A DNA stretch of 64,000 bases from Gammaproteobacteria bacterium. Its GTDB lineage: Bacteria; Pseudomonadota; Gammaproteobacteria; GCA-001735895. The stretch lies in NCBI GenBank assembly GCA_029862005.1, contig JAOTYD010000014.1, positions 1 to 64,000 of the forward strand, read 5' to 3'. Below are positions 24,638-62,149 of this stretch, piece by piece. The translations under genes and the position numbers were made by a program. Below the pieces are notes generated by a model, which was not told where the DNA came from, did no database searches, and was given only the letters and a program-made list of their open reading frames with translations. Each line of letters opens with the position of its first letter. The stretch's first letter is position 1.

Positions 24638-24747
24638 AGCCATAGGATTTTTAATGTTAATGAGTATCTTAATCGTAAAGCGTTGATCGAAATGGTGAAC
24701 ACGGTTAAATCAACAATAACCATGAACATAAAATGAGGAGCACCGTT

Positions 24748-25065
24748 ATGAGCAGTTTGCTTAAAATCGCAGCAAGTGGGATTGTCGTCCTGCTAATAGG
24801 GGGCGTTGGTCCCAGTCAGAGTTATGCCGCCGATGCGGTCCCGCGCGCCGAGTTACTGGCGTCTATGTGCAGCACCTGTCACGGCACCAATGGTAAAGGC
24901 GCCAAGCCCATGCCCGGGATTAACGGCGAGGAACCCGACGATTTCATCGATCTGATGCAGGCCTTCGCCAATGGTGAAGAGCCAACCAGCATCATGGATC
25001 GCCACGCCCAGGGTTATACCGAGGCCGAGCTCAAGCTGCTCGCCGAATATTTCAGCAAACAATAA
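24748..25065 (+). CDS. fccA: Monoheme c-type cytochrome, FccA-like partner of sulfide dehydrogenase
   Basis: The 105-residue precursor has a signal peptide (hydrophobic residues about 5-20, cleavage near SYAADA) and one CSTCH heme site (Cys41, Cys44, His45), followed by a PMPGI segment and a helix ending in LAEYFSKQ, typical of small class I cytochromes. It should be the periplasmic electron acceptor of the flavoprotein encoded 15 bases downstream. Classical FccA is diheme; this one is monoheme. I use ATG 24748 because TGAGGAG sits 7-13 bases before it. An in-frame ATG at 24733 would place that site inside the coding region. Confidence 0.82.
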   Translation: MSSLLKIAASGIVVLLIGGVGPSQSYAADAVPRAELLASMCSTCHGTNGKGAKPMPGINGEEPDDFIDLMQAFANGEEPTSIMDRHAQGYTEAELKLLAEYFSKQ

Positions 25066-25080
25066 TTCAGGAGAAAGACA

Positions 25081-26364
25081 ATGAAAGCATATGATCGCAG
25101 AGACTTTCTCAAGGTAATCGGAGCTGCCGGCGCGGTAACCGGTTTCGGTAGCCTGGTCTGGCCAATGGAAGCCCTGGCCGCAGCCAGCGGAAAAGTGGTT
25201 GTCGTCGGTGGCGGTTTCGGTGGAGCAACTTGCGCGCGCTACTTAAAGCGCTGGGGGCCCAAACTCGACGTTACCCTGGTCGAGCGCGATACCAGCTATA
25301 TCACTTGCCCGTTTTCCAACGAGGTGCTCGCGGGTAACCTGGAAATGAGCAAGATTACTCACGGCTACGGCAACATCGCCGCCCAGGGTATCGATGTGGT
25401 GCATGACGAGGTCACCGCTATCGATGCCGGTGGCAAATCGATCAGCCTCAAGTATGGCGGTTCGATGAAATTTGACAAGCTGGTGGTATCGCCGGGTATC
25501 GCGTTCAGGTGGGGTGCGATTGAAAATGACCAGGTGGCGGTGCAACAGGCAATGCCGCACTCGTGGAAAGCCGGTGAACAGACGCTGTTGTTGAGAAAAC
25601 AGTTACAGGCCATGCGTGACGGCGGCACCGTCATAATCGTGCCGCCGAAAAAGCCGTTTCGCTGTCCGCCCGGGCCCTATGAGCGCGCCAGCCTGATCGC
25701 GCATTACCTCAAGTCGAACAAGCCGAAGTCCAAAATTCTGATCGTCGATGCCAATCCGACCCATTCCAAGCAGGCTGCGTTTCACGAAGGCTGGAAAAAG
25801 GAATACGGCACCATGATCGAATGGATCAAGGATACCGACGGTGGCGTCATCACAAGCGCGGATCCGGGCGCCATGACCCTGCGTAACGATTTTGGCGACG
25901 AGTACAAGGGCGACGTAATCAACCTGATCCCGTATCAAAAGGCGGGTGAACTGGTCGAAACCGCCGGCCTGACCAACAAGGATGGCTGGTGCACGGTTAA
26001 TATGGGCACCTTTGAATCGGCCGAGGCCAGCGATGTGCATATCATCGGGGACGCTTGTGTTGCCGGCGCCATGCCCAAATCGGGCCACTCCGCCGCGTCG
26101 CAGGCGAAGAATTGTGCCGCTGCGATTGTTTCCATGCTTGCCGGAGATACACCGCCCGAGCCGACCTATGCCAACACCTGTTACAGCCTGATCGGGCCCA
26201 GGTACGGTATTTCGGTGGCCGCAGTTTACCGCCTCAAAGACGGGGTCATCGTCAAGGTTTCCGGCGGCGTCAGTAAAGTGGGCAACAAGGATCGGGTACA
26301 TAAGAACGAGGCCAAGTATGCCCGCGGCTGGTACAGGTCAATCACCTCCGACACGTTCGGTTGA
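25081..26364 (+). CDS. fccB: Flavocytochrome c sulfide dehydrogenase, flavoprotein subunit
   Basis: The 427-residue precursor carries a Tat signal ([12 protein letters not shown], residues 6-17). The mature part begins with an FAD-binding motif ([17 protein letters not shown]). All three cysteines important in Allochromatium FccB are present: Cys76 in [10 protein letters not shown] (covalent 8-alpha-methyl FAD link), Cys195 in [12 protein letters not shown] and Cys367 in NTCYSL (redox disulfide). It oxidises sulfide or polysulfide in the periplasm and passes electrons to the cytochrome encoded upstream. AGGAG precedes the ATG. Downstream soxYZ suggests that the sulfur product may be handed to the SoxY swinging arm. 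Confidence 0.92.
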
Positions 26365-26437: not shown

Positions 26438-26905
26438 ATGAGAAGACGAACTTTATTGCAAAATCTATGTGCAGTTGCGGTCACCTGGGTTGCCGGCGGC
26501 AGTGGTATTTTAAATTCGATGCTGGCGAATGCGGCACCCAGGCCGGACGCGGCGTTTCTAGCCAGGGATGTCGACACGGCGATGATGGAGGTGCTGGGTA
26601 CCCGCGAAGCCACCGCCAGCGATCAGATCAAGCTCGATGCTCCGCTGCAGGCGGAAAACGGCGCGGTGGTTCCAATCGAGGTATCGACCACCCTGCCGTC
26701 TCCCGAATCGATCGCCGTGGTGGTGCCCAATAACCCGACACCGTTGTTGAGCGTCATCGAGACCACGCCTCGTACCGGCAACTACTTCAGAATGCGAATC
26801 AAAATGGCGGGCACCGATAACGTCATGGTATATGTCAAATCAGGCGGCCAGTGGTACGTCACCTCGCAGGAAGTACGAGTTGCTATCGGCGGCTGCGGTG
26901 GTTGA
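26438..26905 (+). CDS. soxY: Sulfur carrier protein SoxY
   Basis: The 155-residue precursor has a Tat-like leader (RRRTLLQN then a hydrophobic stretch, cleavage near ANAAP). It ends in the diagnostic VAIGGCGG, whose Cys153 is the swinging-arm residue that binds sulfur intermediates covalently in the Sox pathway. It works as a dimer with SoxZ, encoded 29 bases downstream. No soxXA, soxB or soxCD lies in the window, so here SoxYZ follows sulfide dehydrogenase rather than a complete thiosulfate-oxidising operon. The ribosome binding site is weak, and the message may depend on read-through from fccB. Confidence 0.93.
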   Translation: MRRRTLLQNLCAVAVTWVAGGSGILNSMLANAAPRPDAAFLARDVDTAMMEVLGTREATASDQIKLDAPLQAENGAVVPIEVSTTLPSPESIAVVVPNNPTPLLSVIETTPRTGNYFRMRIKMAGTDNVMVYVKSGGQWYVTSQEVRVAIGGCGG

Positions 26906-26934: not shown

Positions 26935-27249
26935 ATGGCGAAAAGACGTACAAGGCTCAAAACGGAAATAACGGACAACGGTATCCGCGCTACCTGTTTA
27001 ATCAAACATCCGATGGAAACGGGCAATCGGCTCGATTCTGACGGCAACAAGATCCCGATTCACTACGTCAAATACGTGAAGTTTTCGATCAACGGCGAGC
27101 ATGTCGGCACGCTCAACCTTGGCCCCGGGGTGTCGGCAGATCCTTATCTATCGTTCGAAATCGCCGACGTCAAGGTGGGTGATACGCTCGCCTTGCAGTG
27201 GGAAGACAACAGGGGCGAATCGGACGCCGTGGAACGCGTCGTCAAGTAG
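26935..27249 (+). CDS. soxZ: Sulfur-oxidation protein SoxZ
   Basis: The 104-residue immunoglobulin-like protein has the SoxZ pattern: RTRLKTEITDNGIRATCLIKHPMETG, YVKYVKFSINGEHVGTLNLGPGVSADPYLSFEI, and a C-terminal VGDTLALQWEDNRGES. It has no signal peptide, as is usual, because it is exported together with SoxY. GAGGAA lies about 8 bases before the ATG. A different frame at 26832-27041 overlaps both genes and is not coding. Confidence 0.94.
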   Translation: MAKRRTRLKTEITDNGIRATCLIKHPMETGNRLDSDGNKIPIHYVKYVKFSINGEHVGTLNLGPGVSADPYLSFEIADVKVGDTLALQWEDNRGESDAVERVVK

Positions 27250-27280: not shown

Positions 27281-28006
27281 ATGCGTAAATCGGGACTTTT
27301 GGTTATATTGCTGGCGGTTATTATCCACCCCGGAAGCGGGTTTGCTCAGCAAGGCTCGGGCACGGATTTGCCGGCCAGCGTGGCGGCGGAACTTGCGCCC
27401 AATTTCGAGTCTGGTCCGCGTCTGATCCAGGACTTGTCCGAGGAGGCGCAAAAAATTCGCCGCCAGCAGCTGATGCGTCAATCGAATCGCGTCATGCCGC
27501 CGATACCACGGGAGCAAAAAAAGGCGCTTTTCGACATGATGACCCCGGCGAGCAGCATGTCGATGCGTGATCTGTTCAATTTCATGACGGATAAAATCAA
27601 GGCTGATCCGGAATTGACCTTCGACGATGTCGTCGAGGCGATGGAACTCAAGGCCAACGAAGTCAACTTTAAGAAAGTAGGACATAACGAATTCTGGAGG
27701 GACGTCAGCGCTTATTCGGGTTTGCCGACTCTGCGGCTCGAGATACTCCAGTTCTGTGATGCCGACGTCGGTCGGCGCATGCTCGACTTCAGCCCTGAGT
27801 TTTCCATTTTCATTCCCTGCCGGATTACCGTGATGGAAGACGCCACCGGCGAAATCTGGTTGATGACGCTTGACTGGGACGTCAGTTGGCTGTCGCGCGC
27901 CTGGCAGCCGGGATCCCGGCTGGATCCGAAGCTGGTCAAGGATGCAATCCGTATCCGTGATGCGATGACGCAAATCATGCAGGCCGGTGCCTCCGGAGAC
28001 TGGTAA
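27281..28006 (+). CDS. Exported DUF302-domain protein
   Basis: The start is ATG 27281 with a run of G upstream; the frame is open further upstream only across soxZ. The 241-residue precursor has a signal peptide (GLLVILLAVIIHPGSGFAQQ), a helical region with methionine-rich SSMSMRDLFNFMTDKIK, and a C-terminal DUF302 domain (ELKANEVNFKKVGHNEFWRDV ... LRLEILQFCDADVGRRMLDFSPEFSIFIPCRITV). DUF302 proteins of unknown function are common beside sulfur-oxidation and c-type cytochrome genes. Two cysteines, in QFCDAD and FIPCR, could be redox-active. Closely spaced after soxZ, it is probably part of the operon. Confidence 0.75.
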   Translation: MRKSGLLVILLAVIIHPGSGFAQQGSGTDLPASVAAELAPNFESGPRLIQDLSEEAQKIRRQQLMRQSNRVMPPIPREQKKALFDMMTPASSMSMRDLFNFMTDKIKADPELTFDDVVEAMELKANEVNFKKVGHNEFWRDVSAYSGLPTLRLEILQFCDADVGRRMLDFSPEFSIFIPCRITVMEDATGEIWLMTLDWDVSWLSRAWQPGSRLDPKLVKDAIRIRDAMTQIMQAGASGDW

Positions 28007-28084: not shown

Positions 28085-28858
28085 TTGCAGGCACTGGCTT
28101 TTCACCGCTCGCTGGCATATTGCGTGAGTGTCTTGTTACTCGCCACACTGGCTTTTACCGCGCGGGCCGAAAGCCGCGCGACCCTTGAAATCAATGACGA
28201 AATCGAAATCGATATCGTCACGTTCGGCGAACCGGCGAAGACCGGCATTATCTGGTTTGCCTGCAGACAAGGGGAGGATGCGATCGAGTTTGCAATCGCA
28301 AGAAGGCTGGCAAGCAAGGGCTATCAGATTTATTTCCCCGATATGTTAAGTGCGCATTTCCAGTCGTCCCTGCCGTCGAATATCGCTCGGATTCCAGCTG
28401 CAGAGGTTGTCGCCGTTATCGAGCATATCATCGACAACACGAGTGCCGAGCGATTGTTCTTGCTGGCCGGTGCACGTGCCGCGGTGCCGGTAATCCGCGG
28501 CCTGGCCGATAAAAAATTGCAGCAAATGGACTCGAAACTGAAAGGCGCATTATTGATCACCCCCCGAATTTACAAAACAACGCCCGATCCCGGCTCCGAG
28601 CCGGTTTATATCGATGAAGCCGGATTGTCAATCCACCCAATCTTGGTACTGGAAGGCGAACGTACCCCCAACCGTTGGGGATTGCCGCATTTGGCAGCAA
28701 CGCTAAAAAAATCAGGCAGCCGGGTGCAAACCGATCTGATTGACGGGGTACGCGGCTATTTTTATCTGCGCGACTATCAGACCCCGGCCGAGAGGGAAAT
28801 GACCCGCCAACTCGATACATTGATTCATGATAATTTGCAGAAACTCGGAGCAAATTGA
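28085..28858 (+). CDS. Exported alpha/beta-hydrolase-like protein of the sox block
   Basis: I choose TTG 28085, which has AGGTGA just upstream and gives a standard signal peptide (QALAFHRSLAYCVSVLLLATLAFTARA). In-frame alternatives are ATG 28046 and TTG 28025. The mature protein, about 230 residues, has an alpha/beta-hydrolase-like strand order (TGIIWFACRQGEDAIEFAIARRLASKGYQIYFPD; LFLLAGARAAVPVIRGLAD), but the usual GxSxG elbow reads AGARAA, so the serine nucleophile is missing. It may be a catalytically dead or divergent member, perhaps a binding protein for a sulfur-pathway partner (inference). It is followed 2 bases later by the TlpA gene. Confidence 0.6.
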   Translation: MQALAFHRSLAYCVSVLLLATLAFTARAESRATLEINDEIEIDIVTFGEPAKTGIIWFACRQGEDAIEFAIARRLASKGYQIYFPDMLSAHFQSSLPSNIARIPAAEVVAVIEHIIDNTSAERLFLLAGARAAVPVIRGLADKKLQQMDSKLKGALLITPRIYKTTPDPGSEPVYIDEAGLSIHPILVLEGERTPNRWGLPHLAATLKKSGSRVQTDLIDGVRGYFYLRDYQTPAEREMTRQLDTLIHDNLQKLGAN

Positions 28859-28860
28859 GA

Positions 28861-29376
28861 ATGGATTTTTACCGTCACCTGATATTTAGCCTGTCGCTGG
28901 TTTTAATGGGCCAGCAGGCACAGGCTGCCACAGGTCAGTTAAAAGAATACTGGGGTGACTTGACGTCACCCGAGATCGAATTACCCGATTTGCAGGGTCG
29001 GCAGCATTCATTGACCGACTATCGCGGTAACGTCGTGCTAATACAGTTCTGGGCTACCTATTGCACGTCTTGTCGTACCGAAATGCCGACCATGAATCGG
29101 CTGATTAAAAAGATGCGAGGCAAGCCATTCAAAATCGTCACCGTCAACATGGCCGAATCACCTGGGCAGGTGCGGCAGTTTTTACAGGAAGTGCCGGTGG
29201 ACTTTCCAGTGCTAATGGATAGCGATGGCAGCACCCTGAGCCGATGGAAGGTTTTTGCCGCTCCGGCAAATTTTATTCTCGACAAGCGGGGTAAAATCAT
29301 CTTCACGCTGTACGGTGAAATCGAATGGGATTCGGATGAAATGGTCAGCCGGTTAAACGCGCTGAGCGAAGAATAA
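28861..29376 (+). CDS. TlpA/SoxW-like periplasmic thioredoxin
   Basis: The 171-residue precursor has a signal peptide ending near AQAATG and a TlpA-type thioredoxin domain with CTSC (Cys68, Cys71) in IQFWATYCTSCRTEMP, the cis-proline region AAPANFILDK, and the TlpA insertion. It should reduce periplasmic disulfides; in Sox systems SoxW plays this role for SoxY or the cytochromes. GGAG lies about 10 bases before ATG 28861, and a TTG two codons earlier is an alternative. It is the last plus-strand gene of the fcc-sox operon and meets the next cytochrome gene tail to tail with 15 bases between. Confidence 0.85.
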   Translation: MDFYRHLIFSLSLVLMGQQAQAATGQLKEYWGDLTSPEIELPDLQGRQHSLTDYRGNVVLIQFWATYCTSCRTEMPTMNRLIKKMRGKPFKIVTVNMAESPGQVRQFLQEVPVDFPVLMDSDGSTLSRWKVFAAPANFILDKRGKIIFTLYGEIEWDSDEMVSRLNALSEE

Positions 29377-29391
29377 ATTCATCCAGCAGGC

Positions 29392-30009
29392 TTAACTAGC
29401 CGAGGCATAGAAATTCAGCAGCGCCTCGATGTCCGCCTGATCCAGTTTTTTTAACTGGTTTGACATGCGCCGTGACACGAGGCGTTTGCCGCTCTGAATA
29501 TTGTTGAACTGCAACCTCAGGTAGGGCGTCCACTGTCCGGCGAGGATGGGCGCGTCATCTACCGGTTGGGTGCCGTTTTGCAGGTGACATCGTTCGCAAT
29601 GGTTCTCGTGTAGAATTGCGCCGCGACTGGCAAGTTCCGGATTAAACGCCTGACTTCTTGGGATATATTTGCGCTTGGAAAAATAATTCGCCAGCCCCTT
29701 GAGATCCGCGCCGCTCAATTGCTGCGCGATATTCCTCATGACGGTCTCGGGCTCGCCGGGCCGCTGAAATTCAATCGCGATACGCGCGTTTTCACGATAC
29801 TCTTCCATGGTATAGAGAAATCCCTCGTAGGAAAAACCGGAGATACTCGGAAAAATCGGTAACACGCTGTTACCATCCTGCCCATGGCAGATCTCGCAAC
29901 GTTTGACCAGGTCGCTAAAATCTTCGGCAGCCCCGGGAGCGGTAAATATCGCAAGGCCGGCTGTTAGTAGATAAGCGAGAGCACGGTACATGATCCGGAC
30001 CAAAATCAT
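29392..30009 (-). CDS. Diheme c-type cytochrome, c4/c553-like
   Basis: The 205-residue precursor has a signal peptide (about residues 8-28) and two heme sites: CEICH (Cys38, Cys41, His42) and CERCH (Cys138, Cys141, His142). Each half ends with a helix of the LANYFSKR/LLNFYASAS type, as in cytochrome c4-like two-domain proteins of the periplasm. It would shuttle electrons from sulfur oxidation to terminal reductases. It is the last of four minus-strand genes facing the sox block, separated from its upstream neighbour by 134 bases that hold no gene. ATG 30009 or the internal ATG 29991 may be used. Confidence 0.85.
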   Translation of the reverse strand: MILVRIMYRALAYLLTAGLAIFTAPGAAEDFSDLVKRCEICHGQDGNSVLPIFPSISGFSYEGFLYTMEEYRENARIAIEFQRPGEPETVMRNIAQQLSGADLKGLANYFSKRKYIPRSQAFNPELASRGAILHENHCERCHLQNGTQPVDDAPILAGQWTPYLRLQFNNIQSGKRLVSRRMSNQLKKLDQADIEALLNFYASAS

Positions 30010-30143: not shown

Positions 30144-30680
30144 CTATTGTGCGGGCATCGGCAGCGGCATCGGGGTGCCGGGCACCATGCCCCATGGCCA
30201 GCTGTGCATGCCCGGTAGTGGATCACCCGGATTGAGGCCGTATTTCTCCTCGACCGCGCGTTGCCAATATTCGGCGGCTTTCGGGTCCTGCATCGACGCC
30301 ATCATGTCGTTGTAGGCTTGCGGATTAGCCATCGTCATCGGATTCATCATCGCCGAGACGTAAGGGCCGAAGAATTGCTGATAGCGGCCTACGTCCTCGT
30401 TGTCATGACAGGCCGCACAGCTGCTGATCGGATTGGCCCAGATGCGCGGATCCATCGACATCGTCATCATCATGGCCCAGGAGTTGGGATCCATCGTTTT
30501 GGCTATGGTTTGAGCGGCCCGGTTAACTTCGTCGGTGTCGGACGCTGCCTGTTGGTCTTGCGCCTGCAACGGATTGCTGGCCAATACCGTTACCAGCAAC
30601 ACAAGAAATAAACCACCGGCTAAACCCGTACTCTGCGTTGAATGAAACAATTGGTTAAGCTTGATCATAGTGAAGGCCAT
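30144..30680 (-). CDS. Monoheme cytochrome c with methionine-rich DP/NPxxW/Y motifs
   Basis: The 178-residue precursor has a signal anchor (residues about 18-40), one heme site CAACH (Cys88-His92), and unusual flanking sequence: MDPNSWAMM, MDPRIWANP before the heme and MMNPMTMANPQAYNDMMAS after it. These short motifs echo the 9-residue repeats of the protein encoded at 31097. The C-terminus is Pro/Met-rich (MVPGTPMPLPMPAQ). The start overlaps the previous stop as TGATG. I know no characterised homologue. It may be a partner or cofactor-bearing relative of the repeat protein in one periplasmic complex (inference). Confidence 0.75.
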   Translation of the reverse strand: MAFTMIKLNQLFHSTQSTGLAGGLFLVLLVTVLASNPLQAQDQQAASDTDEVNRAAQTIAKTMDPNSWAMMMTMSMDPRIWANPISSCAACHDNEDVGRYQQFFGPYVSAMMNPMTMANPQAYNDMMASMQDPKAAEYWQRAVEEKYGLNPGDPLPGMHSWPWGMVPGTPMPLPMPAQ

Positions 30681-31036
30681 CACCGTGAATTGTGGATGAT
30701 ATAGTCGACCGCGGCCCTGACCTGGTCGTCGGTGAGATTCCAGTTACCGCCACGCGCCGGCATTCGTTTACCGGAAGCGCCGGTCCAGCCATTGATCGCG
30801 TGACGATACAAAACCGTCCTGCCGCTATCGATACGGTCTTTCCAGGCATTTTTATCGCCGATCCGAGGTGCGCCACCTACGCCCGGCCAGTGGCAGACCG
30901 TGCAGGTGCGATTAAATACGGTCCAGCCTTCTTTCAAGCGCTCGGTTGAGGGTTGCTCCTCGGCAAATGCCGATCCCATTAATAGCGCCAGGCTGGCGCC
31001 GAGCCCTAGTAACCAGTTGCGTAAATGATGGTTCAT
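30680..31036 (-). CDS. Cytochrome c5-like monoheme cytochrome
   Basis: The 118-residue precursor has a signal peptide ending at SAFAEE and a single heme site CTVCH (Cys45, Cys48, His49). It has the class I features GVGGAPRIGDKNAWKDRID, the likely axial methionine in KRMPARGGNWNLTD, and a final helix RAAVDYIIHNS. This matches the cytochrome c5/c555 group of soluble periplasmic carriers. It is translationally coupled to the next cytochrome (TGATG) and lies 60 bases downstream of the repeat-protein gene in the same direction. Confidence 0.88.
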   Translation of the reverse strand: MNHHLRNWLLGLGASLALLMGSAFAEEQPSTERLKEGWTVFNRTCTVCHWPGVGGAPRIGDKNAWKDRIDSGRTVLYRHAINGWTGASGKRMPARGGNWNLTDDQVRAAVDYIIHNSR

Positions 31037-31096: not shown

Positions 31097-31804
31097 TCAC
31101 TGGCCGGATTCGGGCTCGGCCTGCGATCGCGGCATGTAGGTCGATGGATCGAATGGATTAAAAAATGACTGCCCCTGGGGTGCCTGGCCAGGTGCCTGTC
31201 CCGGTTGCATCATCGGATTCCAGGCATTGGGATCAAACCAGTTGTACGCCGGCGCCTGGGCCGTTGTTGGCAACGAATAAGCCGCCGGATTCATCCATTG
31301 CATGTAAGTCGCGGGATTCATGTACATCGCGTAATTCCCGGGATTCATCAACTGCATATAGGTAGAGGGATTCATGAAGGTCATGTACTCCATCGGATTC
31401 ATCATCGCCATATAGGTAGAGGGATTCATAAAGGTCATGTAAGACGCCGGATTCATCCAGCTCATCCAGTTGTTGGGATTGGCGAATTGCATGTAGAACT
31501 GCGGTGTCATGAATTGTCCATAGGTTGCCGGGTTCATGAAGGCTCCATAGGTGCTGGGGCGCATGAAAGCCGACCACCCACCCGGTGTCGCCAAATTCAT
31601 CTGCAACGGAGCGCCTGGCATACTCGGCATCGTCGTCGCCCCTGGCATCGCCATCCAGGTTGACGGGTCGAACCAGTTGGGGGTAACGGGCTGCGCCTGG
31701 GCCGCGGCGGTACCCGTCGGTAATGTAAAGTACAAAGAAGTTATCGGCGGTGCCGCCCACAGCGCGCTAATCAATGCGAGGGGTGCAAATATTTTCCTGA
31801 TCAT
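31097..31804 (-). CDS. Exported Met/Asn/Pro/Tyr-rich 9-residue-repeat protein
   Basis: The start is ATG 31804 with GGAGG 5 bases upstream; an in-frame ATG at 31855 has no such site. The 235-residue product has a signal peptide (about residues 5-35). A linker with NWFDPSTWM follows, then twelve consecutive 9-residue units (residues 72-179) of consensus MNPxxYMxF/W, and a tail with NWFDPNAW and NPFDPSTYM. The protein has no Cys or His and very few charges, so heme or ordinary zinc binding is excluded. The methionine ladder could bind Cu(I), or stack aromatics as a rigid solenoid or adhesive sheet. It leads a run of cytochrome genes in a sulfur-oxidation locus. I do not recognise any described family. 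Confidence 0.72.
   Translation of the reverse strand: MIRKIFAPLALISALWAAPPITSLYFTLPTGTAAAQAQPVTPNWFDPSTWMAMPGATTMPSMPGAPLQMNLATPGGWSAFMRPSTYGAFMNPATYGQFMTPQFYMQFANPNNWMSWMNPASYMTFMNPSTYMAMMNPMEYMTFMNPSTYMQLMNPGNYAMYMNPATYMQWMNPAAYSLPTTAQAPAYNWFDPNAWNPMMQPGQAPGQAPQGQSFFNPFDPSTYMPRSQAEPESGQ
31268..31591 (-). repeat. Twelve tandem 27-base coding repeats (9-residue units)
   Basis: Units begin every nine residues at positions 72, 81, 90, 99, 108, 117, 126, 135, 144, 153, 162 and 171 of the protein without a single insertion. Pro at unit position 3 is invariant, Met or Ala fills position 1, Asn usually position 2, and an aromatic residue (Tyr/Trp) position 6. The outer units are more divergent (ATPGGWSAF first, MNPAAYSLP last) than the central ones, the usual pattern when a repeat grows from the middle. 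Confidence 0.9.
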
Positions 31805-32900: not shown

Positions 32901-33818
32901 TTAGTCGGCCAGGCGGGTGGTCATCGGGTTGGTTTTGTACTGCGTCCACTGGTGCAGCGAACCGTCGTACAACTTGACGTCCTGCTTGCCGACTATTTCG
33001 CGCAACACGAACCAGGCTGATGAAGCTTCATATCCGCTGTTGCAGTACAGGATCAGGCTATCGCCAGTATCGATGCGTAGCGAATCGAGCAGATTTAGGT
33101 AAGATTCGCGGTCGAAGTAACGATTGCCACCTTTCATCGGATTCAGAAACTTATACGGCATATTGCGTGAGCCTGGAATATGCCCGGGGGCGTATACGTA
33201 ATCCTTCTTTTCGAGACCGACATGATAGCGTAGCTCACGCGTATCGATCAGCGTCACCGCATCATCCTGCAGCGCTGCCCGAACCTGCTCCATGGTCGCC
33301 ACCACGTCCGGCTTTTCATCGCCAACCACGTAATTACCGGGCGTTACCACGGCTACTTCGGTAACCAGCTCTTCGAGCGAGGCGACCCAGCCCGGATTGC
33401 CGCCATCGAGCAACGCTACCCGGTCGAAACCAAAATATTTCATCTGCCAATACAGGCGCGCGGCACCGGTGACCTGCCCGGAGGTTTTGCCGAGATGCGT
33501 TAAAACCACCGTGCTGTCATTATTAACCCCGTGCGCGCGCATGAATTTTTCGAAGCCGGCGGGATCTGGCCGCATCCGCGTCATGTTCTTGTCATTGATC
33601 TCACGCTCGATGCGGATCTCCTTCACGTTGACGAGTATCGCGCCCGGGATATGCCCGTCAGCGAAGCTCTCAATATCCTTGCGCACATCGAGGACCAAAA
33701 CCTCGTCGATATTATCGACCAGCCATTCGCCTGTGATCAGCGGCCCGGGTAGTTCGGCCGCGGCCAATCGTGACCCATAAAAAAGGCCAAGCATTACCAG
33801 CATCACTAATTTCTTCAT
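32901..33818 (-). CDS. Periplasmic two-domain rhodanese (sulfurtransferase)
   Basis: The 305-residue precursor has a signal peptide ending near AAAELP and two rhodanese domains. The N-terminal domain (about 30-150; LDVRKDIESFADGHIPGA) has lost the active cysteine (VLTHLGKTSGQVT). The C-terminal domain (about 170-300) keeps it, as Cys259 in LYCNSGYEAS. This is the thiosulfate:acceptor sulfurtransferase arrangement. In the periplasm it could move sulfane sulfur between thiosulfate, polysulfide and SoxYZ. Its upstream region has an ANR-type box with a CATCAT -10 at exactly the class II distance, so it is probably expressed together with the sulfide dehydrogenase genes. Confidence 0.88.
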   Translation of the reverse strand: MKKLVMLVMLGLFYGSRLAAAELPGPLITGEWLVDNIDEVLVLDVRKDIESFADGHIPGAILVNVKEIRIEREINDKNMTRMRPDPAGFEKFMRAHGVNNDSTVVLTHLGKTSGQVTGAARLYWQMKYFGFDRVALLDGGNPGWVASLEELVTEVAVVTPGNYVVGDEKPDVVATMEQVRAALQDDAVTLIDTRELRYHVGLEKKDYVYAPGHIPGSRNMPYKFLNPMKGGNRYFDRESYLNLLDSLRIDTGDSLILYCNSGYEASSAWFVLREIVGKQDVKLYDGSLHQWTQYKTNPMTTRLAD

Positions 33819-33926: not shown

Positions 33927-35297
33927 TTAACTGTAAAACATGTCGCGGTACATGCCCTCGGCCCAGGCCAGGCTGGCCTGCCCACCCTGCGTATCCCAGC
34001 GCTCGATCAAATGCGTACGGTCGAACGCGAACTCGCCGGTTTGGTCGCTGAACTTGTAGTAGGTAATGATGCTCATCGCGCGCAGTGGTTCTATGTCGAC
34101 CGCGGAAAAACACATGGTTTGTGGACTGCGCCAGCGCACCTCCTTGTCGAGGGCGTGTGCGGCGATCACCTCGGCGACATACTGTGCTTCCGAGTGCGCG
34201 GTATGCCCACCCTTTGAAAAAGGTTGTGAACGCGAATCGCCGGTCACGTAAACGCGTTCGTCGTCGAGCAGGTGATAACGAAACGGGTCGGTATTGGCCG
34301 CCTTTTGCGAGCTGATCGGGCTGGCGATGCCGTTATCCTCGATCAGGCGCGACGCGCGCACCGGCGGGTAAATAATCGCGTCATCGAAATCGTACTCGTC
34401 GAACTCGGTTTCGACGCGGCGCCTTTCAATGTCGACGTTGCTGATCTCGGAACTCGACAGATACTCGATGTAATCGCCGTAGAGTTCGGCGAAGGCGCGC
34501 GCAAAACCGTGTTTCTTGATGCGGATTTCGGCATTCATGTCGAGCAGCAGAATTTTTGCGCGAACGCGCTGGCGCTTGAACAACGCTGCTATCATGCAGG
34601 CGCGCTCGTAGGGTGCGGCAGTACAGCGAAAGTCACCATTGGGTACGTTGAGCAGAAATGTGCCGCCGTTGAAGCGGTGAATCTTGCGCTTGATTGTCAA
34701 CAGTTCCGAGCTTGAGACAAAACCGCCGGGATAGCGGTGAAACAGCAGGTTTTGCGACTCGGTATCCTCGACCCCAATACGCGCGTAGTCGTATTCGATA
34801 CCGGGTGCGAGCACGAGATAGTCGTAGTCGACGAAGCCTTTTTCGGTGTAGACGCGGCGGGTCTCGCGGTCGAAACCGAGTACGGTTGCCTGCATGAAGT
34901 GGTAATCGTGGTTATTCGCGGCATCGAAAAAACTGTGACTCAGAAAATCGAGATCGACCTGGTCGGCGAGCCATGAATTGCTAATTGGAAAGGATACGAA
35001 TGCCGACTGGCGGTCGATCAACAGCACGTCAAAGCCGGGATTGAAACGGCGCAGGTACTTCGCCATCGTCAGTCCCGACCAGCCACCACCAACGACCACG
35101 ACGCGTTGCCCCCGGGCCCGTGGCAAAGTGGCCTTGCGCAACAGGCTGTTGAGCGCGGGCGCCTGCTGTATTTCGTTCTTATCCGCACCCGTCGCGACGT
35201 TGGTGCTAACCGTGGTTGCCGCGAGCGCGACGCCGGAGGCTTGCAGAAATCTACGCCGCTCGAGATTAGTGTTTATTTTCATCTTTGGGGCCTTCAT
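33927..35297 (-). CDS. FccB-like flavoprotein lacking the covalent-FAD cysteine
   Basis: The 456-residue precursor has a Tat signal (ERRRFLQASGVALA, residues 13-26), an FAD motif (VVVVGGGWSGLTMAKYL) and the sulfide-dehydrogenase flavoprotein plan. The flavin-linking cysteine of FccB is replaced by serine: FVSFPISN (Ser102) against ITCPFSN in the paralogue at 25081. The redox pair is kept as Cys225 (FRCTAAPYERA) and Cys396 (QTMCFS). It should therefore bind FAD non-covalently and may use another sulfur substrate. The four-base overlap with the diheme cytochrome gene upstream shows that the two form a flavocytochrome-like pair. Confidence 0.82.
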   Translation of the reverse strand: MKAPKMKINTNLERRRFLQASGVALAATTVSTNVATGADKNEIQQAPALNSLLRKATLPRARGQRVVVVGGGWSGLTMAKYLRRFNPGFDVLLIDRQSAFVSFPISNSWLADQVDLDFLSHSFFDAANNHDYHFMQATVLGFDRETRRVYTEKGFVDYDYLVLAPGIEYDYARIGVEDTESQNLLFHRYPGGFVSSSELLTIKRKIHRFNGGTFLLNVPNGDFRCTAAPYERACMIAALFKRQRVRAKILLLDMNAEIRIKKHGFARAFAELYGDYIEYLSSSEISNVDIERRRVETEFDEYDFDDAIIYPPVRASRLIEDNGIASPISSQKAANTDPFRYHLLDDERVYVTGDSRSQPFSKGGHTAHSEAQYVAEVIAAHALDKEVRWRSPQTMCFSAVDIEPLRAMSIITYYKFSDQTGEFAFDRTHLIERWDTQGGQASLAWAEGMYRDMFYS

Positions 35298-36204: not shown

Positions 36205-38769
36205 TCAGGATCGTGGTAGCGTGTTTTCCGGGTCGTAGAGCGGCTTGTAGCCGACCGCCTCGATCCTCATCGGAAACTGTTCACCGAGGTATTCCGTAAC
36301 CAGCTCACGGCCTTCCTGGCAATACTCGTGGGGCAGGTAGCCGAGCCCGATATTCTTGCCAAGGTTTGGACCGTAGGCGATGCTAGTGATGTAAGAGCGA
36401 CGACCCTTTGAATCGATCGGCACTTCGCCTGTCTCGGGGTCCATCAGCGGCAGCTGACCCACGGGATAGCGAGCGATACCGTTCGAATCCACGTTGTCGG
36501 GCATGACCAACGTGCACAGGTAGGCGGCCTGGGTTTTAAGCTCGCGCTGCTCGAGGTAGGGCGCCTTGCCGTGGAAATCTGCCTGCTTGACCACGGCGCG
36601 CGCGAGGCCCGCTTCGTACAGGTTATACTCGGTCAGCAGGTCGGCGTTCTGCAGCCGCAGGCTCTTTTCCATGCGCCGGCTGTTGGCATAGGTTTCAATC
36701 CCGACCGGTGTCGCGCCCTGTGCATAGACCAGGTCCCAGAGCGACATGCCGTAACTGAACGCCACGTGCAGTTCCCAGCCCTGTTCACCGACGTAGGAGA
36801 TGCGGAAAGCCTCGACCGGGATGCCTTTGAGGGTGAGTTGCCGGGTTGCGGCGAACGCAAAGTTTTCATCTTTCCAGGCGGCTGGATCGTCCGCGATCGC
36901 CTGGATGGCCTTGCGCGCGTTCGGTCCCCACACGCCGAGGCAGGCCATGTGATCCGAGCGATCGTCGATATAGACATTCCAGTTGTTATCTTCGGCCATG
37001 CGTTTGAGCCAGATGTAATCGCGGTGGCCGGCATCGGCGCCATCGATCACCCGAAAACGGTCTTTGGCATGGCGAATCACCGTGAGGTCGGCCCGCACGC
37101 CGCCGCGCTTGTCGAGGAAATGTGTGTAAACCCCCTTGCCGATGGCGGTATCGCCGCCGACCCTGGCGACACAGGCATACTCCATCAGAGTCTCGGCGTC
37201 AGGGCCAATGACATCGTACACGGCGAAATGCGACAGGTTGATCATGCCGACGTTTTCCGACATCGCCAGTTGCTCGGCATTGGATACGCGCCAGAAGTGG
37301 CGATTGTCCCATTCATGCTCGCGTACGGGCACCTTGTCGCCGTATTTCTCGAGCAGGTGTTCGTTGGAAGCATAACCGTGTGCGCGCTCCCAGCCGGACA
37401 GTTCCATGAAGTAGCCCCCCAGTTCCTGCTCGCGCGCCCAGAAGGGGCTGCGGCGCAGGTTGCGGCCCTTGGTGTAGGGTTCACGGTTGTGCACGGCCGG
37501 GTTGTAAATTTTGAACGCGGATTCAAAACAGCGATCGTAAATATAAGACGGTGTTTTCTGAATCGGATAGTGACGCGCAGTGTCGATACCGAAGTAATCC
37601 ATCTCGGCGACGCCGTCGGTCATCCAGTCAACCAGCACCTTGGCGATACCGGGGGCATCCTTGACCCAGACCGCGATCGCGTACCAGAGCCCACGGGTTT
37701 GCGATGATTCGCCAATCGACGGTCCGCCGTCGGAAGTCACCTGCAGCAGGCCGTTGAACGAGTGTTTCTCGTTGTAGCCGATTTCGCCGAGGATCGGGGT
37801 CAATTCCATCGCGCGCTCCAGTGGCTCCATGATCTGCTCGAGTTCGAGATCACGCTGCGACGGCGACCAGTGGGTCTCGCCTTTTTCGGGAAGGTCACGC
37901 GGATGCACCAGGCGGGGCTCCTTTTCCTCGTAGTAACCCCACTCGATCTGGCCGCCTTCCGGTGTTGTCGGGTCGCCGGTGTCGCGCATATAGGCCGAGT
38001 TGCCCTGGTCGCGCAGCAGCGGGTAACCGATGTCCTTGCCGGTACCTTCAAATTCGGTGTAAGGGGCGAAGAAGGAGAGCGGGTGATCGACCGGCATGAC
38101 GGGCAGATCTTCACCAGCCATTTCGGCGATAGTACGACCCCATAGTCCGGTACACACAATGACGTGGTTGGCGGCAATATAGCCGCGGCTGGTTTCGACG
38201 CCGACGATGCGGCCTGCCTTTATATCGAGCCCAGTCGCGTTGGTGTTGGCAAAGGATTGCGCTTTGCCGGTTTTGACCGCGTTATCGACCAGGATACCGG
38301 CAACCGTCTGCGAGCGGGGTTTCACCAGGCCGGCGTCGGGGTCCCACATCGCACCCTGGATCATGTCCTCTTCGAGCAGCGGAAACAGTTGCTTGGCTTC
38401 CGCCGCGCTGATCATTTTCACGTTGGTGCCGAAGGCCTTGCCGGAAGCGACCTTGCGCTTGAGTTCCATCATGCGGTCGTCGTCGCCCACACGTGCTACC
38501 TCGAGACCGCCGACACGGTCGTAATGGCCCATCTGGTCGAAGAATTCGATGCTGTAATGCGTGGTATAGCAGGTGAACTTGCTGTGATCGGTGGCATAGC
38601 AGAAATCGGACGCATGCGAGGTTGAGCCGCAATCGGTCGGAACCGACGTCTTGTCGATACCGACAATGTCTTCCCAGCCGCGTTCGACGAGGTGATGCAT
38701 CACCGAGGCGCCGACAATACCGCCGAGGCCGATAATGACGACGTTGGATTTATCTGGAAATTGTGCCAT
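36205..38769 (-). CDS. Dimethylglycine/sarcosine-dehydrogenase-like flavoprotein with GcvT domain
   Basis: The 854-residue protein has four regions: an FAD-binding DAO domain (about 1-370; VVIIGLGGIVGASVMHHL), an FAO_M linker (about 380-435), a GcvT-type tetrahydrofolate-binding domain (about 440-730) and a GcvT C-terminal barrel. His52 in GSTSHASDFCYAT is at the position of the covalent 8-alpha-histidyl FAD link of dimethylglycine dehydrogenase. It should oxidatively demethylate an N-methyl compound and pass the carbon to tetrahydrofolate. GGGAG precedes the ATG. It lies alone, unlike its paralogue in the ABC-transporter operon at 59726, so the two probably act on different substrates. Confidence 0.85.
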   Translation of the reverse strand: MAQFPDKSNVVIIGLGGIVGASVMHHLVERGWEDIVGIDKTSVPTDCGSTSHASDFCYATDHSKFTCYTTHYSIEFFDQMGHYDRVGGLEVARVGDDDRMMELKRKVASGKAFGTNVKMISAAEAKQLFPLLEEDMIQGAMWDPDAGLVKPRSQTVAGILVDNAVKTGKAQSFANTNATGLDIKAGRIVGVETSRGYIAANHVIVCTGLWGRTIAEMAGEDLPVMPVDHPLSFFAPYTEFEGTGKDIGYPLLRDQGNSAYMRDTGDPTTPEGGQIEWGYYEEKEPRLVHPRDLPEKGETHWSPSQRDLELEQIMEPLERAMELTPILGEIGYNEKHSFNGLLQVTSDGGPSIGESSQTRGLWYAIAVWVKDAPGIAKVLVDWMTDGVAEMDYFGIDTARHYPIQKTPSYIYDRCFESAFKIYNPAVHNREPYTKGRNLRRSPFWAREQELGGYFMELSGWERAHGYASNEHLLEKYGDKVPVREHEWDNRHFWRVSNAEQLAMSENVGMINLSHFAVYDVIGPDAETLMEYACVARVGGDTAIGKGVYTHFLDKRGGVRADLTVIRHAKDRFRVIDGADAGHRDYIWLKRMAEDNNWNVYIDDRSDHMACLGVWGPNARKAIQAIADDPAAWKDENFAFAATRQLTLKGIPVEAFRISYVGEQGWELHVAFSYGMSLWDLVYAQGATPVGIETYANSRRMEKSLRLQNADLLTEYNLYEAGLARAVVKQADFHGKAPYLEQRELKTQAAYLCTLVMPDNVDSNGIARYPVGQLPLMDPETGEVPIDSKGRRSYITSIAYGPNLGKNIGLGYLPHEYCQEGRELVTEYLGEQFPMRIEAVGYKPLYDPENTLPRS

Positions 38770-59725: not shown

Positions 59726-62149
59726 TTACCTGGATGGTATGCGCATGCCCAATCCTTCAGGGTCGTAGACGCAACCTGGCACAATCGTGCCAGCATTCTG
59801 ACGGCCCGCAATATCAACGTCAACGCCGAGTCCATCTAAAAGTGAACTTTTACCGAACTCAACCAGGGCTATCGCGACCGGTTTTCCGACGCGGTAGCCG
59901 AAGGCGGCCGACGTGGTTTTACCAATGATACTGCCGTCGTGGTAAACCGGTTCATTGCCGAGTGGCTGCGCGTTGGTATCATCCAGCAGGATACTAACCA
60001 GTCTGCTTGCGGGTGGCCGGTCCCGGTATTCGAGCAGGGCTGTCTTGCCGATAAAATCACTGTCCCAGTCGAGCGTGAACTCGAGCCCGGCCTGGAAAGG
60101 ATTCAGGTCCGTGTCGAGATCGTGACCGAAGGCCAGAAATCGCTTCTCGATACGCATCGAGGTTTGTGCAAATACTCCGGCGGGATTTGCCCCGGCGCTG
60201 ATCAACGCGTCAAAAAGTTGCCCTGCATGATGTGCCGGGCAGCTAATTTCCCACCCCGCTTCGCCAACGTAGGAGAGCCGGGCTGCCTGGAGCGGAATCT
60301 CTGCGATTGCCGTGTCGCAAAATTCGAAATATCCGATTTGATTGAGCTCGGGAACGCCGAGTTGCAGCGCCATTTCGGCTGTTCTTGGTCCCATTAGTCC
60401 GAGCACTGCGTAGTCGTCGGTGACATCGGTGAGTTCCACCTGCTCGCCAGGTTCGAGATGTCGTCTTAGCCAGGCGAGATCCCGCCTGATCGCGTTGGTG
60501 CCGACGTAGATGCGGTACTCGTCGTTACTGAGCCTGAGTGCGGTCAGATCGCTCTCGTAGCCGCCGCGTGAATTCAGCATCGCCGTATAAATGGTCCGAC
60601 CCGGGGATCGCGTCATGTTATTGCTACAGACTCGATTCAAGAAACGTTCGGCATCGGATCCGTTGACCCTGATTTTGCCGAAGCTCGATTGATCGAAGAT
60701 GGCCGCCGCCTTATGAGCATACTCCACCTCCCTGGCCACTTGCTCAAACCAGGCGGGCTTGTCGAATGACAGTTCGGGTTCGTGAAGCTTGTCGAAATAG
60801 AGCGGCCTTTCCCAGCCGAAAAACTGGCCAAAATGCGCCTTGTGATCTTGCCAGCGCGAATGCAGTGGTGTCAGTTTCAGATTACGTGCAGTCTCCAGCT
60901 GAATACCAGGGTAGTGAATCGAGTAGTGGATACCGAGTATTTCCGGTGCGCGAGCCGTAAGCGCTGCCACCGAATTGAAGCAGGCGGGATAACGTTTTGG
61001 ATCTGCCTCATATAAATCGGTGGGGGTATGACCGTGAACGATACAGTGCGCCAATGCCATACCCGCCCCGCCACCGGTAGCAACGCCCACCGAGTTCATA
61101 CCGCAACCGAGAAACAGGCCGCTTGTCTCGGCACTCTCACCGAGCAGGAAGGATCCGTCCGGGGTGAAGCTCTCGGGCCCATTAAGCAGCATGCGGATAT
61201 CGGCGTCAGCCAGGCAGGGCAGGCGATGCAGGGCGTTTTCCAGCATTGGCTCGAAGTGGTCCCAATCCTCGGGCAACAATTGAAAGGCAAAGTCCTTACC
61301 GATCTGCACGGGATCGATGGCCTTGCCCATGGGCTCGAAACAGCCGACCAGCAGTCCGCCGGAATCGTCGCGGATGTACAAATGGCTGTCATGATCGGAT
61401 AGCGTCGGCAGATTACCCGATATCCCCTCGATCGGATTGGTCAGCAGGTAAAAGTGTTCGCATGGCCAGACCGGAACCTCGACGTCCGCCATTGCAGCAT
61501 TCTCACGACTCCACAGACCGGTGCAGATGGCGATGGCATCGCAATCGATTTCGCCGGCACTGGTTTCAACGCCGATCACCTTGTCGCCCCGGGTTTTAAT
61601 GCCGGTGACTCCGCAATGCTCGAAAATTTTTGCACCACTGGTTCTGGCACCCTTAACCAGTGCCGCGCAAAGATCCGAGGGCCCGACTCGACCATCGTCG
61701 GGTGACCAGACTGCACCGATCACATCACTGGCATTCATCATCGGCCAGCGTTCGCTGGCCTCGTTAACTGATATTGAATTCGCAGACACACCGTAAAGCT
61801 TTGCCAGCGCCTCCTGGCGCTTGATAAAGGTCAGCCGATCGGGATTGGTGGCGATCGACAGCGATCCCTTGCTGATCCACCCTGTGGCCTGGCCGGTTTC
61901 CTGTTCGAGTGAACTGTAGAGTGAAATCGAGTACTTGATCAGGTCGGTCAGATTCTTGCTGCTGCGCAGGGCCCGCACCTGCGCGGCTGAATGCCAGGTA
62001 GTGCCGGAGGTCAATTCATTGCGTTCCAGCAGTACCGCGTCGCTGACGCCTGATCTTGCGAGATGGTAGAGAGTGGAGCAACCCATGACGCCACCGCCGA
62101 TGACAATAACCGAAGCATGCGTCGGTAATTCTGGAAGAGAGGTCGCCAC
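59726..62149 (-). CDS. Dimethylglycine-dehydrogenase-like flavoprotein with GcvT domain
   Basis: The 807-residue enzyme has a DAO-type FAD domain (residues about 12-370; VIVIGGGVMGCSTLYHLARSG). His53 in SGTTWHSAAQVRAL is the histidyl-FAD site of the dimethylglycine/sarcosine dehydrogenase family. A linker and GcvT folate-binding domains (about 440-800, with LSYVGEAGWEISCPA) follow. It should demethylate an N-methylated amino compound, giving methylene-tetrahydrofolate. It differs from the 854-residue paralogue at 36205 around the FAD site (TTWHSA against STSHAS). Its operon with an amino-acid ABC transporter suggests an imported substrate. Confidence 0.87.
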   Translation of the reverse strand: MATSLPELPTHASVIVIGGGVMGCSTLYHLARSGVSDAVLLERNELTSGTTWHSAAQVRALRSSKNLTDLIKYSISLYSSLEQETGQATGWISKGSLSIATNPDRLTFIKRQEALAKLYGVSANSISVNEASERWPMMNASDVIGAVWSPDDGRVGPSDLCAALVKGARTSGAKIFEHCGVTGIKTRGDKVIGVETSAGEIDCDAIAICTGLWSRENAAMADVEVPVWPCEHFYLLTNPIEGISGNLPTLSDHDSHLYIRDDSGGLLVGCFEPMGKAIDPVQIGKDFAFQLLPEDWDHFEPMLENALHRLPCLADADIRMLLNGPESFTPDGSFLLGESAETSGLFLGCGMNSVGVATGGGAGMALAHCIVHGHTPTDLYEADPKRYPACFNSVAALTARAPEILGIHYSIHYPGIQLETARNLKLTPLHSRWQDHKAHFGQFFGWERPLYFDKLHEPELSFDKPAWFEQVAREVEYAHKAAAIFDQSSFGKIRVNGSDAERFLNRVCSNNMTRSPGRTIYTAMLNSRGGYESDLTALRLSNDEYRIYVGTNAIRRDLAWLRRHLEPGEQVELTDVTDDYAVLGLMGPRTAEMALQLGVPELNQIGYFEFCDTAIAEIPLQAARLSYVGEAGWEISCPAHHAGQLFDALISAGANPAGVFAQTSMRIEKRFLAFGHDLDTDLNPFQAGLEFTLDWDSDFIGKTALLEYRDRPPASRLVSILLDDTNAQPLGNEPVYHDGSIIGKTTSAAFGYRVGKPVAIALVEFGKSSLLDGLGVDVDIAGRQNAGTIVPGCVYDPEGLGMRIPSR

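Follow-up and report, generated by a model that had tools for sequence, protein, structure and literature searches.

The window (64,000 nucleotides, positions 1 to 64,000 of contig JAOTYD010000014.1 in gammaproteobacterial assembly GCA_029862005.1) encodes a protein built around a tandem MNPxxYMxF repeat, which we refer to as family c0. The initial annotation placed this gene correctly between 31097 and 31804; the reading direction is the minus strand, from an ATG at 31804 preceded by GGAGG to a stop codon at 31097-31099. The protein consists of a signal-like N-terminus, a short linker of Pro, Met and Gly, twelve repeat units, and a Gln/Pro-rich tail with an NWFDPxxW echo of the N-terminal flank. 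As the initial annotation stated, c0 heads a run of cytochrome genes, followed on the minus strand by a cytochrome c, a Met-rich monohaem protein (family c10) and a dihaem cytochrome c, in that order. This run faces fccAB-soxYZ-DUF302, with the DUF302 gene about 2 kb from c10 on the opposite strand. The description of the surroundings as a sulfur-oxidation island is also borne out, with FccB and an FccA-like cytochrome, SoxY, SoxZ, DUF302 and rhodanese all encoded there (Table 1). Further along the window, two large fused FAD-oxidoreductase/aminomethyltransferase-type proteins (36205-38769 and 59726-62149, named by eye) both belong to our cluster c3, whose proteins also occur near loci of one other c0 paralogue group (group B, described below).

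Table 1. Features of the c0 gene and of its neighbourhood in the window.
Feature	Coordinates	Strand	Basis and remarks
MNPxxYMxF-repeat protein (family c0, paralogue group A), 235 aa	31097..31804	-	Open frame, GGAGG Shine-Dalgarno
Sec signal peptide, residues 1 to ~35, cleavage near AAAQAQ	31700..31804	-	Sequence inspection by eye
N-terminal flank motif NWFDPSTWM, residues 43-51	31652..31678	-	Conserved across most of the family alignment
Twelve tandem 9-residue units, residues 72-179	31268..31591	-	Gapless 9-mer split
C-terminal flank motif NWFDPNAW, residues 188-195, echoing the N-terminal one	31220..31243	-	Conserved across most of the family alignment
Small monohaem cytochrome c, directly downstream of c0	30680..31036	-	Pfam Cytochrome_CBB3/Cytochrom_C
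Met-rich monohaem protein (family c10: MDPxxW...CxxCH...MNP)	frame 30683-30144; from MIKLNQLF 30668-30144	-	No Pfam/NCBIfam family over cut-off
Dihaem cytochrome c	29392..30009	-	
FccA-like cytochrome c	24733..25065	+	One CxxCH, adjoins fccB; by eye
FccB, flavocytochrome c sulfide dehydrogenase flavoprotein	25081..26364	+	PF09242, PF21706 over cut-off
SoxY	26438..26905	+	PF13501
SoxZ	26935..27249	+	PF08770
Exported DUF302 protein, start inferred at MRKSGLL	27281..28006	+	PF03625
TlpA/thioredoxin-like exported protein	28855..29376	+	CTSC motif; by eye
Exported rhodanese-domain protein	32901..33818	-	PF00581, two stretches
Second FccB-like flavoprotein	33927..35297	-	PF21706 (FCSD central domain) over cut-off; PF09242 (FCSD flavin-binding) not listed

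The repeat is real and as regular as first described: residues 72-179 divide into twelve 9-residue units without a gap. Pro occupies position 3 and Tyr or Trp position 6 in all twelve, while Met is found at position 1 in ten and at position 7 in seven, Asn at position 2 in nine, and Phe or Trp at position 9 in eight. Met accounts for 18.5% of the residues in the repeats. In the mature protein, 56 positions are identical at a lag of nine residues, compared with a maximum of 38 in 20,000 shuffles, where the highest value at any lag from 3 to 29 was taken.

No Pfam or NCBIfam family reached its cut-off for the window protein, and searches of the PDB by sequence, both single and profile-based, gave nothing meaningful for c0, in agreement with the earlier view that the repeat belongs to no characterised family. 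The jmjN domain (PF02375) was rejected: it aligns to just 15 residues of the window protein and scores 18 bits, below the cut-off of 26. In a Pfam scan of 16 c0 members it was likewise the sole match, below cut-off and in 11 of them (best E 4.9e-6), which we judged to be a short coincidence of Pro and aromatic residues. Our literature search found neither a described Met/aromatic nonapeptide repeat nor a sulfur-linked relative. On sequence grounds, c0 thus appears to be a new protein family, but provisionally so, as sequence comparison is poorly suited to linking short repeats of biased composition.

To relatives, the nine-residue phase extends without exception, being kept in all 43 core c0 sequences examined. 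Pro is present at position 3 of all twelve units in 28 of these; the other 15 all belong to a variant with a histidine pair (His-type, below) and have it in 9-11 units, the last unit always being without. Five of these 15 also lose the Pro of one earlier unit, and in the most divergent His-type sequence (L078) it is lost in units 10-12. In an alignment of 16 members, Pro, Asn and the aromatics stand in register and residues are specific to each unit. Units of the same index are 58% identical, against 37% for units of different index, which indicates that the array is old and has not recently expanded. The window protein has orthologues with 85-90% identity in four other genomes, which together form paralogue group A. 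Constraint among these orthologues is strongest in the repeats, with a dN/dS of 0.04, compared with 0.12 for the linker, 0.19 for the tail and 0.39 for the signal segment. The twelve units are thus kept in phase by strong purifying selection. That c0 is low-complexity sequence with no specific role would fit its biased composition and the poor confidence of its structural model (see below), but such low dN/dS is that of a constrained protein and not of drifting sequence, and together with the phase in 43/43 core sequences and the unit-specific conservation it makes this explanation extremely improbable. The same features bear on whether c0 coats extracytoplasmic sulfur as a sulfur-globule envelope. 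It is exported, repetitive and aromatic, and Fcc and Sox are encoded nearby. However, the known sulfur-globule proteins form a loose low-complexity coat, which a fixed number of units under strong constraint argues against for c0, and no relevant match to a sulfur-globule family was found for c0 in Pfam, NCBIfam or the PDB. We regard such a coat as quite unlikely.

Nearly half of the family (19 of the 43 core sequences, for example L003 and L040) is of the His-type. In all 19, unit 2 is 13 residues long and contains a fixed four-residue insertion with an HxxxH pair (DPxxHxxxHxxF). These sequences make up one side of a single branch (support 97/96) in the c0 tree, which excludes four members that are shorter, partial or divergent. 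The initial annotation had described a protein with little charge and neither Cys nor His. This holds for the window protein but does not extend to the family, given the HxxxH of the His-type and a C-terminal Cys pair in one paralogue group (group C, seen in the His-type member on contig C37 of the window's own genome). The HxxxH pair suggests metal binding in the His-type branch, and it helps to keep copper the main rival explanation: a periplasmic protein whose Met ladder stores or passes Cu(I) or another soft metal, in the manner of CusF, CopI or SilE. Met-rich periplasmic copper proteins are common, and the Met content of the repeats and the Cys pair of group C would also suit such a role. 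In one genome (G023), a group B copy lies about 6 kb from copA/copB-like genes (L088:12174-13906), the sole copper-type neighbours noticed, by eye. Inspection by eye of the surroundings of groups A and C and of the other lineages read revealed no copper export, oxidase or sensor gene. Groups A and B are without HxxxH, and it is Pro and the aromatics, rather than Met, that are invariant in the unit. On balance we consider a copper or soft-metal function unlikely, though it remains well ahead of a globule coat.

Besides the window copy, the same genome has two more c0 paralogues on other contigs, three in total. Within the order, c0 was found in 17 of 41 genomes, all of one genus. In the class sample it occurs in 7 of 369 genomes; eight were listed, and one (G109, a weak match with E 9.7e-6 and internal stops) was discarded. 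In a phylum sample of 329 genomes it was found only in the window's own genome, and a plasmid search gave no match. Those relatives that carry a name are MAGs of Gammaproteobacteria, among them one assigned to Arenicellales and one to Chromatiales.

The surroundings of c0 differ between the paralogue groups, so its neighbourhood is not constant. For group A, found in the window's own genome and four close ones, the surroundings comprise FccAB, SoxYZ, DUF302, cytochromes and rhodanese. Group B is found beside thioredoxin-like, TolQ-like and RND genes, with a DUF255/DsbH-type protein nearby, and group C adjoins MATE and TRAP-TAXI genes (named by eye). In the loci read for groups B and C there are no sulfur genes nearby and no cytochrome operon alongside. 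It had been asked whether homologues always neighbour fcc/sox or cytochrome genes, and these two groups, both present in the window's own genome, show that they do not. Nor is FccB a genomic correlate of c0: it is present in 6 of 17 carriers and 8 of 24 non-carriers in the order (p = 1) and was rejected as such. FccB does stand beside c0 at one further locus (L036). In G049, two adjacent, divergently transcribed c0 genes (L101:9078-10501), one His-type and one not, adjoin a Met-rich haem protein, DUF302, SoxZ and SoxY.

These neighbourhoods bear on two further explanations. A sacrificial methionine buffer, scavenging periplasmic oxidants and repaired by methionine sulfoxide reductase, would account for the very high Met content; Met-rich periplasmic proteins are known substrates of methionine-sulfoxide repair, and the thioredoxin-like and DUF255/DsbH-type neighbours of group B would fit. 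Such a buffer needs Met content, but not an exact nine-residue phase, invariant Pro and aromatics or a fixed identity of each unit, and we think it about as improbable as the globule coat. Alternatively, the electron-transfer proteins of the periplasm (cytochromes, Fcc, Sox) may use c0 as a scaffold or docking rod, which would bind them through matching Met/aromatic NP motifs. The operon-like order with three c-type cytochrome genes, the fixed number of units with their position-specific residues, and an MNP/MDP motif that c0 shares with c10, with another companion family (c5) and with two DUF302 proteins (L144, L145) whose N-termini are rich in Met all speak for this, while the groups without an adjacent cytochrome operon (B and C) speak against it. 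We give a scaffold the same low likelihood as copper binding.

A better genomic link of c0 than that to FccB is the one to these two other undescribed families. Family c5 comprises exported proteins of about 230 aa with invariant Met, Trp and Pro and with segments initiated by (D/N)P; no Pfam or NCBIfam family matches it significantly. Its genes are immediate neighbours of c0 in L036, L038, L039 and L105-L108, and in L037 and L101 they lie close by. Family c10 consists of the Met-rich monohaem protein of the window and its relatives, again with no Pfam or NCBIfam family over cut-off. Solved structures likewise account for neither c5 nor c10. In the class sample (369 genomes from 271 genera, some of the carrier genera having supplied profile seeds), c0 and c5 occur in the identical six genera and c10 in five of those six; the c10 family profile (A5) finds 6 of the 369 genomes, each with c0 or c5. 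When only unseeded genera are counted, the chance of such co-occurrence with c0 is 3e-7 for c5 and 8e-5 for c10, although possible shared ancestry means that these values overstate independence. At the level of the order, c10 is found in 12 of 17 c0 carriers and 1 of 24 other genomes (p = 9e-6, with independence again overstated owing to shared descent). Among 13 genomes of the genus tested for c5, it was present in 4 of 5 c0 carriers without c10 and in 0 of 8 non-carriers. That c0, c5 and c10 form one genetic set is strongly supported. The c10 proteins of L101, L103 and L112 contain MNPM tracts of variable length, and two DUF302 proteins beside c10 and YeeE (L144:6686-7783 in G084 and L145:9342-10598 in G224) have long N-terminal MNPM/MMNP repeats.

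We read the c10 loci in five genera, where this family is mostly accompanied by DUF302 and YeeE and often by Sox and DsrE2 as well. DUF302 adjoins c10 in G049, G084, G224 and G253 and on contig C21 of the window's own genome (loci L101, L103/L147, L112, L144 and L145), and was absent beside c10 at the locus read in G364. The c10 stretch also holds YeeE (PF04143) in G049, G084, G224, G253 and C21, SoxYZ or SoxXAYZ in G049, G084, G253 and C21, DsrE2 (PF13686) in G084, G224 and G253, and a FadL-type porin in G253 and C21. The C21 stretch (L112, L148) is a second Sox locus, apart from the window's fcc/sox island, with c10, DUF302, a SoxX-like cytochrome, SoxZ, SoxA, the porin, YeeE and SoxY (C21:2567-2875). 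c0 itself is found beside c10-DUF302-SoxYZ in G049 and with DUF302-c10-YeeE in G253. SoxY is mildly enriched, occurring in 8 of 9 carriers of c0 or c5 compared with 51% of the class sample (p = 0.04). DUF302 has been noted in sox clusters, where its role is not known (PMC5037610), and a YeeE-like protein, SoxT, imports sulfur for oxidation, although the species carried is not known (PMC11582611). The linkage of c10, together with c0's own neighbours, points to a tie between c0 and periplasmic sulfur oxidation (Sox, Fcc, DUF302, the YeeE/SoxT transporter and DsrE2). This tie is strong through c10 and at the c0 loci of group A, G049, G253 and L036, is missing at groups B and C, and in co-inheritance is weak for SoxY and not seen for FccB. 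In this marine sediment bacterium, c0 probably has an accessory role in sulfur oxidation, a part so far missing from the bacterial process; the pathway that it seems to serve is already known.

Structure prediction gives some indication of how such a protein may be built. An AF2 model of the window c0, from a 10-row alignment, has a helix in nearly every unit but is unreliable (mean pLDDT 40.6, pTM 0.28). The model of c5 is somewhat better (mean pLDDT 57.6, core about 58-77) and forms a chain of short helices begun at [DN]P; neither Foldseek nor VIA-align matched it to a solved fold above noise. Each c0 unit, N-[PxxYMxF], may be a short helix capped by Asn and broken at Met-Asn. Twelve of them could form a regular array, one face of which would be made of Met, Tyr, Trp and Phe and the polar back of Asn, Ser, Thr and Gln. 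The Met/aromatic face would reversibly hold a cargo that is soft and hydrophobic; zero-valent sulfur (polysulfane or S8) coming from FccAB or carried by SoxYZ is the likeliest candidate, and the cargo could also be a sulfur-loaded partner or carrier. c0 would then present it to the Met-rich partners c5, c10 and DUF302 for the removal of electrons or for import. A periplasmic Met/aromatic array that reversibly holds zero-valent sulfur for Met-rich partners is the explanation we favour over the others, tentatively and with less than even confidence. A wider and more doubtful proposal, which we still place a little above copper or a scaffold, is that c0, c5 and c10 work together in the periplasm as a system, not described before, that binds, shuttles and oxidises zero-valent sulfur between Fcc/SoxYZ and a SoxT/YeeE importer. 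In that system, c0 would be the nonapeptide Met/aromatic array, c5 the partner with (N/D)P-initiated helices and c10 the Met-rich haem protein.

Zero-valent sulfur is insoluble and reactive, and it is an open problem how sulfur oxidisers keep it available after its formation by periplasmic oxidation and before its import. c0 and two co-inherited exported families, with their link to DUF302, YeeE and Sox, provide concrete genes and proteins for it. As a fold, a fixed-length nine-residue repeat of Pro, Asn, Tyr and Met would also be a useful test of short-period repeat architectures.

Among known systems, c0 resembles CusF, CopI and SilE in being exported and in having many Met residues, but its copper gene context is limited to one copy, the window protein has neither His nor Cys, and its Pro/aromatic periodicity is invariant. 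With the SgpA/B/C proteins of purple sulfur bacteria it shares export, repetitiveness, abundant aromatics and a sulfur-oxidation context. These sulfur-globule proteins are rich in Gly and Tyr, whereas c0 has fixed-length Met/Pro/Asn units under strong purifying selection and matches no family. The closest parallel in mechanism may be the STI1/DP domains and the C-terminal 'methionine-rich helical hand' of Sgt2, which are flexible, Met-rich and bind hydrophobic cargo (PMC8010706). By analogy, c0 could act like these 'helical hands' but grasp sulfur instead of a transmembrane helix; the proposed likeness lies in short helices bounded by helix-breaking prolines and in a Met-rich hydrophobic surface. 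The STI1 profile was absent from the Pfam scan of 16 c0 members, and a weak STI1-HOP_DP match (E 0.021) was found in one of nine c5 members. The STI1/DP hand has five amphipathic helices forming a groove; for comparison, the c0 and c5 models are of low confidence, and the c5 model has no solved-fold match. c0 also differs in being bacterial and exported, in its exact nine-residue period over twelve units, in having Tyr/Trp as invariant as Met, and in lacking a TPR partner domain, and the likeness is one of analogy. Finally, the DUF302 proteins of sox clusters (PMC5037610) have a domain of their own, whereas c0 has no recognised domain, but both are uncharacterised exported proteins that recur with Sox genes, and the DUF302 members at L144 and L145 even carry MNPM repeats.
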